Under the pieces are notes generated by a model, which saw only the letters and a list, made by a program, of their open reading frames with translations, was not told where the DNA came from and did no database searches. A program made the position numbers and the translations under genes. A stretch of DNA of 64,000 bases, taken from assembly GCF_002788215.1 (NCBI RefSeq), contig NZ_CP024845.1, positions 3,038,001 through 3,102,000 on the forward strand, in the 5' to 3' direction. Positions within the stretch are counted from its first letter, which is position 1, and each line of letters opens with the position of its first letter. This DNA is from Halohasta litchfieldiae (GTDB lineage Archaea > Halobacteriota > Halobacteria > Halobacteriales > Haloferacaceae). Shown here one piece after another: positions 32,509 through 36,114 of the stretch.

Positions 32509-35500
32509 CTATGTCGTCCGAAGGTGACCTTGGGTCGGTTCGTACAGTTCGCCTTTCCGGCGGAGGTTCTCGATTTCTTTTTCGGCTTTGGTGGCCTCCA
32601 TGCCGATCTCGCTAGCCCGTTCAAGCACTTCGTCGACCGGTGCGCCCTCCTCGAACTCGTCTTCGATCTCGGCGATCAGCTGCTTGATGTTCTTGATCCG
32701 GTCCCGTTGGGTTTTCGAGGTCCCCGTCTCGACCACGTCGGCATCGAACTGGCCAGTCTCGGGGTCGACACCGATATCCTTCAGACAGGAGCGAACGATA
32801 TCAACGGATCGGGTCGCGTCCTCCTCGTCGACGGTATCCGAGAGCCGTACCCGTGCGCTGGCCTCCGCCAGCCTGACGAGTGCCTCCAGCTTTCGGGCCG
32901 TGACCGGAATCGGCGCGTCCTCATCGGCCCCTTTCGAGCGCAGGTCGACGTAGAACTCCCGAATTGCGGCTTTGGCCTCGTCGGTCATCGTCGGGAAACA
33001 GGAGCGTTTGGCGTGGGCGATATACTTCCGAAGGAGTTCGGCGTCGATCTCGGGGGCGACCTGTTCGGTTACCTCGTCGACCTGCTCCTGGGTGAACTCC
33101 GAGGTCGGCACGTTGGCGCGTTGCGTGTTCAACTCACCCGCGTAGTTTGTCTTGAGGATGTGGTCGGCCAGCATGCCGTCGTGTTCGGGGTCGGGCTTGT
33201 CAGTAACCGTAAAGATGAGATCGAACCGCGAGACGAGTGCGGGTTCGAGATCGATCTGCTCGCCGATTGGTTCGTACTGGTCGAACCGGCCGTACTTCGG
33301 ATTCGCCGCGCCGAGCAGTGAACACCGAGATTTGAGCGTGGCGTTGATCCCTGCTTTCGAGATACTGATCTGTTGCTGCTCAAGAGCTTCATGCATAGCC
33401 GACCGGTCTTCCGGTCGCATTTTATCTAGCTCGTCAACCGCTGCGATCCCTTGGTCGGCCAACACGAGCGCACCGGCTTCGAGGGTCCACTGCTGGCCGT
33501 CGCCGAAGTCATCTCTTACAGCTGCCGCAGTAAGCCCGGCCGAACTGCTGCCCTTCCCGGAGGTGTACACCGATCTCGGGGCAATATTCTCGATATATGA
33601 TAGCATTTGGGAGTTGTGGGAGATGACGTTGTTCGTGAGGTAGTTGTGAGTTCCCTCGACTTCCAGATCGTAGACCCAGTCGTCGTCGGGGGTGACTGTC
33701 TCAATCGTCTCGATTTTCTCCCATCCAACGTCGCCATCAGCCAACTGTCGGAGCGCGTCAACATCTCGCGTGAGGCTGTCGACACCACCGTCAGAAGCAA
33801 TGACTGTCTGTTCAGCGGTTGTGTCTGTCATCGCATCTTCGAATGCAGATACGACGCGTGAGAGCGCGTCACGGCTTGGATTTCGTCGGTTTCGCTCATA
33901 ATGCTGATACGTGCTTCGTGGAAGGTTGCACGAAGCCTGTGGGAGCTCAAGCGCCTCCCGAATTCGTTTGAGCTCGGCCCCGATATTCGGCACTACATCG
34001 CGGTTTGTATTGCTTGCTGTACTACCGTGTTTCAGTGTAGCCTGTGTTTTCCGTTCCGTAACAAATCCGACCTCGTCGACGTACCGTTTGAATTGGTCTC
34101 CACTGATTCGGAGTCGGTAACTGCCGTTCTGTCGTTCTGCAAGCTGCGAAGAGATACCGAGCGAGAGCAGCAGGCTTCGGACGTTTGCCAACAGCTCACG
34201 ACTCATCGAGGCAACTGAAATCTCTCGTTGCGTCGCTGAAACGTGTCCTTCGCCCTCGATATACGCTTTGAGGAATGCGGCTTTGATTTCGACTGACGCG
34301 CTCTGAATTGCGGGTGGTACTCGCTGTGTGTCCGAGCCAGTGAGCAGTTTGCTGTCACAGTGCTCAAGGAAGCTTACGAACTCCCCTGACGAGCACATGA
34401 GTTCCTCGGCATCCTTTCCATCGTGTGGTTCTCGAATCGTAGTGTTCAATCCAAGATCCGAAAGCGTCTGTGTAGCATCGGCTAAGACTTTCTCGTCATT
34501 ATTTGTAATCGAGACGAAGCCAGTATTATCCTCGCGCTGCTCAACGTATCCCTCTGCGACAATGTATCCGAGCAAGCGGGCTAACTCGGGGGTCCATCTG
34601 TCCGGCAATGATAATTCGACTGCGTTGTATGACTGGGATGCTCGATACGTAGCTTCGAGTCCATCGGAACCGTCGCTTGGAATCGTCTGTGGAACTCCAA
34701 TAAAATCACCGACAGAAAGGTCTTCAGCACGGATTGGTGTGAACTGGGCGTTCTGCTGGACGAACAGCGGATGTGATGGAGTAACCGTTACTGATGACCC
34801 CGTCTGAGTCGTGATCCGGTACAATTGCTCGGGGGCCTCACGTTTCCAGACTTTCGTTGCGTGGCCAGTCCCGAGTGTCCCGTCCTGCTGGAGTGTCGGG
34901 ATCGTAATGTCGACTTCGTCCCACACACCGTCGTCGACCGGTTTTGGATCGTCCAAATTCGATTCGACAAGCTCCTCGATTTCCGTTTCCGAGCCGTCAG
35001 CGAGCGTAACCCGCGTCTCCCCGGAAACGCACTTACCAGTACCAGGGTCACCAATAAGCAGCATATGAAGATCGCCACGAATCCGAGAGCCATCGGGGAG
35101 GTTTTTCGTCACACCCGAAAACAACTGCAAAATCATCGCTAGTTTCTCTTCGTCGTAGCCGTAGATCGACGGTGCGACCGAGGCGACCATCTTCTCGTAG
35201 ATATCCGGTGAGTTCGAGAGTTCGATGATCTCGGTTTTGTCCTCCTGCGTGATGTCCATATCCTCGAACACCTCGTCCTCGATGGTGACCGAGACGCCGT
35301 CCATATAGAGGTCGAACAGCGAGGATTTGCCGTCGTTGCCGTCCATCTGCTCGATGTGGAGGACGCCGACAACGGTGACGTGGTCGCCCGCGGTGACTTT
35401 CCCGGTCACGTCGTCTTCGATATTGATATCGATGCTCTGTGGGGTTTCGCCCCCGCGGAGTCCTTCGGGACTCTCCTGAATGCGGAGTTTCTGGGCGTCG

Positions 35501-36030
35501 ACGAACTCCGACTGGTCGAAGTTGATCTTGAATGGGCCTTCGCGCTCGCAGCCCTGACAGTCGTGGGGTTCCTGGAAGTCGCCGTCCTCCTGTGGAATGT
35601 AGTTCATCGTCCCACAGCGCTGGCATTCGAACGCCGAATCCGTTATTTTGGGTCGGACATCGGTGGCTTTGCGGATGATTCCCTGTACGGAGACGAGTTT
35701 GCCGATGTGGTTGTCGTGGACCCGGATGCCGCGGATGTCCACGGAGTCTGGAAGGTTCTGTAGTCGGACGTGGGCGTTGCCGAGTTTGACGTCGGCGGGC
35801 AGATCGTAGAGTCGGAGGGCCTCCTCGGCGTACTCCTGGATCTGGTCGGGTTGGGAGAGATAGTCGTCGGCGAGATCGCGGTCGAACTGGTAGAGGTCGT
35901 CGTAGTCGACGTACAGCGAACGCTGTTCGTTGGGATACTTCTGGGCGAGCGTCCCGATGTCGTCGCGGTAGTAGTTACGGTAGAACTGAATAAACCGATC
36001 AGTGAGTTCCTGATTCCCTGCCTGAGCCAT
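32509..36030 (-). CDS. mcm: MCM replicative DNA helicase with an intein
   Basis: The ATG at 36030 starts MAQAGNQELTDRF. The precursor has 1173 residues: 333 N-terminal extein residues, a 473-residue intein, and 367 C-terminal extein residues. Splicing gives a 700-residue MCM, the normal archaeal length. Zinc-finger cysteines C136, C139, C158 and C161 are in the N domain. Walker A GDPGTGKS is formed only after splicing. LADQGIAAVDELDKM contains Walker B, and arginine-finger and sensor motifs follow. A C-terminal winged helix ends the protein. MCM forms the hexameric replicative helicase that unwinds 3'-5' ahead of the fork. Confidence 0.96.
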   Translation of the reverse strand: MAQAGNQELTDRFIQFYRNYYRDDIGTLAQKYPNEQRSLYVDYDDLYQFDRDLADDYLSQPDQIQEYAEEALRLYDLPADVKLGNAHVRLQNLPDSVDIRGIRVHDNHIGKLVSVQGIIRKATDVRPKITDSAFECQRCGTMNYIPQEDGDFQEPHDCQGCEREGPFKINFDQSEFVDAQKLRIQESPEGLRGGETPQSIDINIEDDVTGKVTAGDHVTVVGVLHIEQMDGNDGKSSLFDLYMDGVSVTIEDEVFEDMDITQEDKTEIIELSNSPDIYEKMVASVAPSIYGYDEEKLAMILQLFSGVTKNLPDGSRIRGDLHMLLIGDPGTGKCVSGETRVTLADGSETEIEELVESNLDDPKPVDDGVWDEVDITIPTLQQDGTLGTGHATKVWKREAPEQLYRITTQTGSSVTVTPSHPLFVQQNAQFTPIRAEDLSVGDFIGVPQTIPSDGSDGLEATYRASQSYNAVELSLPDRWTPELARLLGYIVAEGYVEQREDNTGFVSITNNDEKVLADATQTLSDLGLNTTIREPHDGKDAEELMCSSGEFVSFLEHCDSKLLTGSDTQRVPPAIQSASVEIKAAFLKAYIEGEGHVSATQREISVASMSRELLANVRSLLLSLGISSQLAERQNGSYRLRISGDQFKRYVDEVGFVTERKTQATLKHGSTASNTNRDVVPNIGAELKRIREALELPQASCNLPRSTYQHYERNRRNPSRDALSRVVSAFEDAMTDTTAEQTVIASDGGVDSLTRDVDALRQLADGDVGWEKIETIETVTPDDDWVYDLEVEGTHNYLTNNVISHNSQMLSYIENIAPRSVYTSGKGSSSAGLTAAAVRDDFGDGQQWTLEAGALVLADQGIAAVDELDKMRPEDRSAMHEALEQQQISISKAGINATLKSRCSLLGAANPKYGRFDQYEPIGEQIDLEPALVSRFDLIFTVTDKPDPEHDGMLADHILKTNYAGELNTQRANVPTSEFTQEQVDEVTEQVAPEIDAELLRKYIAHAKRSCFPTMTDEAKAAIREFYVDLRSKGADEDAPIPVTARKLEALVRLAEASARVRLSDTVDEEDATRSVDIVRSCLKDIGVDPETGQFDADVVETGTSKTQRDRIKNIKQLIAEIEDEFEEGAPVDEVLERASEIGMEATKAEKEIENLRRKGELYEPTQGHLRTT
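33613..35031 (-). other. intein in MCM, with LAGLIDADG endonuclease and an HTH segment
   Basis: The 473-residue intein lies between Lys333 and Ser807 of the MCM precursor. It begins CVSGETRV (block A), has TVTPSHPLFV (block B, Thr-x2-His) and ends VEGTHNYLTNNVISHN (blocks F and G) before extein Ser, so it should self-splice. Two LAGLIDADG helices, LARLLGYIVAEGYV and IKAAFLKAYIEGEGHV, show an intact-looking homing endonuclease. Between endonuclease and C-terminal splicing block lies an XRE-like helix-turn-helix (ELKRIREALELPQ, then STYQHYERNRRNPS). Homing would target the Walker A codons of intein-free mcm. Confidence 0.93.
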
Positions 36031-36114
36031 TGCAGAGCCGTAGGTCGTCCTCACCTATGAACTTCAGGATCATCGAACCGCGACAGCCAAGGAGTCCCCG
36101 AAACGACGCCTCGT

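Follow-up and report, generated by a model that had tools for sequence, protein, structure and literature searches.

The MCM-a (CDC21-a) intein, or intein A, interrupts the core haloarchaeal MCM helicase directly behind the Walker A lysine (PMC10643990, PMC3972481), and the VMA-b intein shares this Walker A position (PMC10643990). In Haloferax mediterranei, the MCM-a endonuclease was shown to cut its target and to home, and 19 of the 64 MCM-a inteins of Haloferacales were found to be devoid of a detectable endonuclease (PMC10643990). The position of the allele, its mobility and the loss of its endonuclease are thus already known from the portions of the literature available to us. In those same portions, the accounts of MCM-a (PMC10643990, PMC3972481, PMC4071816) group inteins by homing endonuclease (HEN) or by length only, so that inteins retaining a helix-turn-helix (HTH) without HEN are not set apart there. 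The terms "helix-turn-helix," "HTH" and "accessory" had no occurrence in the available text of PMC10643990, and neither did "helix" and "HTH" in that of PMC4071816.

HTH-like accessory domains were described for TliVMA and PI-TkoII, in which they lie between the endonuclease and the C-terminal splicing part (PMC8966425, available in part). According to the same source, TliVMA without its accessory domain bound DNA less well and no longer cleaved at an alternative site, and the isolated domain seemingly made no contribution to DNA affinity. By sequence, the solved splicing domains closest to the intein studied here are those of PabCDC21-1 and PhoCDC21-1 (PMC6801210; 6rpp, 6rpq), which share the P-loop site of archaeal MCM but are without endonuclease and, given their length of 164 and 168 residues, also without HTH. 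PabCDC21-2 is likewise a HEN-less intein, of 268 residues (PMC6801210).

The window analyzed here is a stretch of 64,000 nucleotides from Halohasta litchfieldiae. Its minus strand carries mcm, which encodes the core haloarchaeal MCM helicase together with an intein, as an open reading frame of 1181 aa from a GTG start (32509..36054). The product matched the Pfam families MCM (3.1e-85), MCM_OB, MCM_lid and MCM_WH_arc as well as the NCBIfam family minichrom_main_MCM (4.4e-224). The intein (33613..35031, minus strand) comprises 473 aa, is in frame and separates K from S in GDPGTGK^S, with exact edges at Cys1 (35031) and Asn473 (33613). The predicted mature MCM would measure 708 aa from the GTG or 700 aa from an ATG at 36030, in line with the 697 to 702 residues reported for core haloarchaeal MCMs (PMC3972481, available in part). 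In another genome of the same genus (G003), the site is empty, the peptide LLIGDPGTGKSQMLSYIENIA is identical and 50 of 63 bases are identical. The open frame, the exact edges, the family matches and this empty site confirmed the MCM intein that the initial annotation had placed at the Walker A site.

By its insertion directly after the Walker A lysine of a core MCM, the intein is a member of the published MCM-a (CDC21-a) allele and does not represent a new system. It shares with the published accounts, as available, the bond, the host gene, the LAGLIDADG endonuclease and the coexistence of large, bare and empty states. Sequence identity over the allele ranged from 44 to 87%, the highest value being that of the intein of the same-genus genome G001, and in a tree built of MCM-a inteins only, the window intein grouped with L004 and L005. 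The window genome also holds a second, distant intein-like match of 28 to 30% identity within a 1727-aa frame (G000:C1:1791286-1792425; L002, L003). Searching phage and plasmid collections with the intein returned 60 and 240 records, respectively, all below 60% identity and at about 23 to 25% among the matches listed; these were distant inteins or endonucleases, and the two collections gave no sign of an origin from a haloarchaeal plasmid or phage.

We then examined the parts of the intein, all of which lie on the minus strand. The whole intein matched the Pfam family Intein_splicing with an E value of 2.3e-26. Residues 1 to 116 (34684..35031) form the N-terminal splicing (Hint) part, with Cys1, block B TPSHPL and an NCBIfam intein_Nterm match at 1.5e-18; residues 430 to 473 (33613..33744) form the C-terminal splicing part (intein_Cterm, 6.1e-06), which ends in VISHN and is followed by the C-extein Ser. 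All sequence marks of a class 1 intein were thus present, namely, Cys1, the TxxH of block B (TPSHPL), SHN and Ser at position +1. S471, H472 and N473 were invariant in the aligned MCM-a inteins, as were the residues of the N-terminal block. The HEN extends over residues 149 to 339 (34015..34587), and LAGLIDADG_3 matched the intein in two stretches (Pfam, 1.7e-32). Its motif helices (residues 148 to 160 and 247 to 261) are present in the predicted structure and, judging by motif position, E160 and E261 would be the catalytic acids; they are conserved in 112 of 112 and in 110 of 112 HEN-bearing MCM-a inteins, respectively. The splicing blocks, both LAGLIDADG_3 stretches, these acids and the modeled helices all agree with the initial reading of two intact splicing ends and two intact LAGLIDADG helices.

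The GC content of the intein was 54.0%, compared to 58.6% for the exteins (GC3, 57.1% versus 74.6%), as expected from the lower GC noted initially. The claim that the intein lacks the acidic bias of its host had to be abandoned, since the two are equally acidic (pI 4.55 versus 4.50; net charge of -7.6 versus -8.6 per 100 residues). The HTH alone differs, being the sole non-acidic part of the intein (pI 8.2).

This HTH (HTH1; residues 347 to 400, 33832..33993) is located between the HEN and the C-terminal splicing part. It matched HTH_3 over residues 354 to 397 (E value of 3.5e-05; 24.2 bits, with a cut-off of 23), and 67 of 67 aligned homologues matched the same family at an E value of <= 0.01. 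A family profile of 14 rows retrieved XRE/C-type proteins from the PDB, the best being "DBP48" (1.1e-05), followed by "Regulatory protein C" (1.6e-04). The predicted structure placed helices at residues 351 to 360, 372 to 379 and 387 to 403, with a pLDDT of 93 to 95 per ten-residue block over residues 351 to 400. HTH1 thus shares the profile match and the helix order with XRE proteins (HTH_3, PF01381), substantiating the XRE-like HTH read at this place initially, but it is embedded in an intein and its turn is 4 residues shorter before the recognition helix, as seen in the two PDB alignments shown.

The linker that follows (residues 401 to 429, 33745..33831) is partly of low confidence (pLDDT of 62 to 63 at residues 401 to 420) and corresponds in the alignment to the place of a second HTH (HTH2) in the long form of the allele. 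Judging by insert length, there is room for a second HTH, of a more usual XRE type, in 45 of the 112 HEN-bearing inteins. In the predicted structure of the long-form intein L158 the second helix set is present, and a Foldseek search with this model returned intein endonucleases first. HTH1 ranks with the best-conserved stretches of the intein: R358, Y378, E379, P385 and F397 were each found in 112 of 112 HEN-bearing inteins. Residue 381 is G in 106 of these 112 and N in the window intein. The HTH profile also detected weaker HTHs, with E values from 2.5e-18 upward, in inteins at other mcm sites, e.g., in G039, a genome with an empty MCM-a site, and at least 185 of 391 genomes of the class had a profile match at an E value of <= 1e-8. 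In L186 (G146), compared with its congener L187, dN was 0.40 in the N-terminal splicing part and 0.51 in the HEN, versus 0.07 in HTH1 and 0.04 in HTH2; L186 appears to have arisen by recombination, with the breakpoint located between its endonuclease and its HTH.

The structure of the window intein was predicted with a mean pLDDT of 91.3 and a pTM of 0.90. Among the 1000 chains compared, the best solved match was the TliVMA intein 7qss (Z of 36.4, 2.7 A, 408 of 432 residues aligned), followed by 7qsu (Z of 36.3) and 2cw7 (Z of 35.7). TliVMA and PI-TkoII (7qss, 2cw7) share with the window intein the order of Hint domain, LAGLIDADG endonuclease, HTH-like domain and C-terminal splicing part; they differ from it in having only 24% and 21% identity to it and hyperthermophilic hosts. 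The 408 residues aligned by 7qss extend over model residues 1 to 473, whereas the shorter TliVMA construct 7qsu aligned 340 residues, and these counts suggest that the additional aligned residues represent the accessory domain. In a sequence search of the PDB (phmmer), the alignment with TliVMA ended near intein residue 321, before the HTH was reached, and the HTH-like domain of PI-TkoII likewise did not align with the window HTH, so that any homology of these domains would be supported by place and fold and not by sequence. By its place and its modeled fold, the window HTH is an HTH-like accessory domain of the TliVMA type, with a putative action on DNA.

We therefore consider it probable that this is a full-size MCM-a intein with self-splicing activity and LAGLIDADG homing, in which the HTH serves the endonuclease as an accessory domain for DNA binding. 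From its intact blocks, the splicing domain is predicted to remove the insert after translation and to ligate GDPGTGK with SQML, so that the Walker A motif is reconstituted; since the insertion sits in this motif, helicase activity would depend on splicing. By analogy with the MCM-a intein of Haloferax mediterranei, the LAGLIDADG domain would cut intein-free mcm at the same site, and repair would copy the intein in. The XRE-type HTH may help the endonuclease to hold or select its DNA, as its fold, its place and the TliVMA precedent suggest. The presence of the HTH in all HEN-bearing inteins, its non-acidic character, the best structural match to TliVMA and the 52 empty sites among 96 relatives speak for this explanation; the seeming absence of a gain in DNA affinity from the isolated TliVMA domain (PMC8966425, available in part) and the N at residue 381 speak against it. 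The earlier suggestion that the HTH may aid target recognition or control is upheld in part: it fits the published accessory-domain idea and, by analogy, the TliVMA deletion results in the available part of PMC8966425.

To place the window intein among its relatives, we took a census of the MCM-a site in 99 genomes. The MCM segment before the site was found in 97 of these, and 96 were resolved (G033 was not). The site was empty in 52 relatives and occupied in 44. Emptiness was judged from open-frame length (689 to 766 aa) in 32 cases, 4 of which were also confirmed by sequence (G003, G010, G011 and G021), and was read directly in the other 19 + 1. This distribution, with 44 occupied and 52 empty sites among 96 relatives, also shows, next to the lower GC, the separate descent of the intein put forward initially. 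In G075:C3 (L090), the mcm frame reaches 1136 aa despite an empty MCM-a site, and in the stretch read after the site no start of an intein was seen.

The 44 occupied sites comprised 26 inteins with HEN and HTH, 2 with HTH but without HEN (G070 and G095) and 16 without both, and none with HEN but without HTH. Fifteen of the 16 bare inteins are intact, with 173 to 209 residues, and that of G020 is frameshifted and was counted as bare. In the latter (L073, G020:C8:153000-154800), a HEN-less MCM-a intein, the reading frame is lost immediately ahead of the final splicing block, leaving an open frame of 563 aa, which reflects either real decay or an assembly error. In a wider set of 135 distinct MCM-a inteins, we counted 112 with HEN and HTH, 8 with HTH only, 15 with neither and 0 with HEN only; the 112 HEN-bearing inteins are a non-random sample, many of them having been retrieved with the whole intein as query, and the 99-genome census is the fair one. 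The HTH, described initially as a segment added to the window intein, is thus general in the allele (26 of 26 in the census and 112 of 112 in the wider set, with HTH1 completeness in the latter taken as passing a threshold of 40 positions), and this presence in all HEN-bearing MCM-a inteins ruled out a private addition of this genome. Absence of the HTH from all relatives, raised at the outset as the observation that would speak against its reading, is contradicted by every HEN-bearing relative examined. Two inteins were found in unexpected records. L115, a haloarchaeal-type mcm intein of 471 aa in a Mollicutes bacterium record, groups with Natrialbaceae-type inteins and is probably a mis-binned contig. 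L182, a long-form MCM-a intein of 531 aa and 44% identity on a Nanohalarchaeota MAG contig, represents either a transfer into that lineage or mis-binning.

At least 8 MCM-a inteins lack the HEN columns but have a complete HTH1: L066, L067, L075, L096, L097, L098, L199 and L200, with 306, 306, 268, 339, 315, 315, 321 and 321 residues, respectively. No LAGLIDADG family match was obtained in the 6 of them that were scanned. A remnant of 30 HEN residues is kept in L096, which indicates that these inteins result from losses of the endonuclease. The HTH-only label required 6 changes on the tree, and also 6 when only well-supported branches were kept (a quick tree method, with HTH1 and splicing columns taken together and the L097/L098 fork left open). 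Consistently, six different deletion joints were observed, and the nearest HEN-bearing relatives differ. Against a profile built from HEN-bearing inteins only, HTH1 of the HTH-only inteins scored 103.3 to 112.7 bits, compared with 92.5 to 121.7 bits (111.8 +/- 5.6) for HEN-bearing inteins. We did not find HTH-only MCM-a inteins in print, in a literature that largely excluded subscription papers and with term searches in the available text of PMC10643990 and PMC4071816; nor did we find, in the same largely subscription-free literature, a paper joining intein, HTH, endonuclease and splicing domain in archaea. At least 8 such inteins are not predicted by an HTH that purely helps the endonuclease, and the survival of the HTH after endonuclease loss may point to an added role.

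The HTH of HEN-less inteins could instead be a passive leftover, namely, a linker with a stable fold that has by chance escaped the deletions and is on its way out, an explanation that we hold to be possible, though on balance unlikely. The census contains 26 full, 2 HTH-only and 16 bare forms side by side, the pattern expected of a decay series, and HTH2 of L096, which has a single HTH_3 stretch and the HEN remnant, is degenerate. In triplet counts for HTH1, HEN-less versus HEN-bearing branches gave s14 n5 versus s6 n2 for L097, s11 n9 versus s2 n0 for L098 and s10 n5 versus s5 n1 for L066; this larger share of replacement on the HEN-less branches hints at partial relaxation. HTH1 of L097 is 78% identical to that of the nearest HEN-bearing relative, compared with 91 to 96% for the other parts of L097. 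However, a partly deleted HTH1 was found in none of the 135 distinct inteins, the HEN-less ones having either 54 positions or <=2, and the pair L097/L098 shows purifying selection on both HTHs.

L097 and L098 share one deletion joint and thus probably go back to a single deletion. Their dS adjacent to the joint (0.32 to 0.59) is not below that elsewhere (0.24 to 0.49), so that the deletion seems older than their split. In this pair, dN/dS was 0.143 for HTH1 and HTH2 together (bootstrap, 0.059 to 0.301) and 0.134 for the splicing domain (0.060 to 0.260), and a Fisher test of dN<dS gave P values of 2.7e-04 for HTH1 and 7.7e-05 for HTH2, which indicates purifying selection on both HTHs in this one informative pair. 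Among HEN-bearing pairs with a dS of 0.2 to 1, which are not independent, HTH1 had a median dN/dS of 0.334 over 305 pairs, and HTH2 had one of 0.449 over 76 pairs. Four single pairs of the same genus, formed among L185, L187, L189 and L157, gave 0.01 to 0.13 for HTH1; the medians being higher, the HEN-bearing comparison depends on the pairs chosen.

These data bear on a further, somewhat more doubtful explanation, namely, that the HTH acts apart from homing and, through binding to DNA (perhaps mcm) or to the splicing domain, tunes how mcm is expressed or spliced. Here the HTH might also be used by the endonuclease, yet it would be kept for its own sake. The similar dN/dS of HTHs and splicing domain after an apparently old deletion, the repeated occurrence of HTH-only inteins with complete HTH1 (six tree changes, six joints) and their HTH1 scores within the range of HEN-bearing inteins are in its favor. 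Moreover, the mcm open frames of G208 and G154, with 1052 and 1057 aa, are too short to include a further intein. It is weakened by the single informative pair, by the excess of HTH1 replacement on the L097, L098 and L066 branches, by the 3 replacement changes versus 1 silent change in HTH2 of L066/L067, by the decayed HTH2 of L096 and by K in place of E379 in L199. In addition, 16 census inteins have dropped both HEN and HTH, so that the HTH is not needed for splicing in those. Finally, although the single-sequence Pfam score was only 1.2 bits above the cut-off, a chance likeness of a helical linker to an HTH is virtually inconceivable and was ruled out by the homologue and PDB profile matches, together with the confident XRE-like helix order of the model.

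The accessory domain that helps the endonuclease remains our preferred reading of the HTH. A role apart from homing is a serious possibility, the passive leftover being about as likely. In its most far-reaching form, of which we are rather skeptical, the HTH would be an endonuclease-independent, putative DNA-binding module, an XRE-type regulator that outlives the HEN and is kept by selection, e.g., by binding mcm DNA and tying the splicing or expression of the helicase to the state of the DNA; the intein would then be partly domesticated, through the accessory domain and not through the splicing domain. The window intein itself is ordinary for haloarchaea. The natural HEN deletions that leave the HTH whole separate the function of the accessory domain from homing, and they open the published idea that accessory domains serve endonuclease targeting to a direct test in haloarchaea, for example in Haloferax. 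Should the HTH act alone, it would illustrate how a selfish element can acquire a function within the replication gene of its host.
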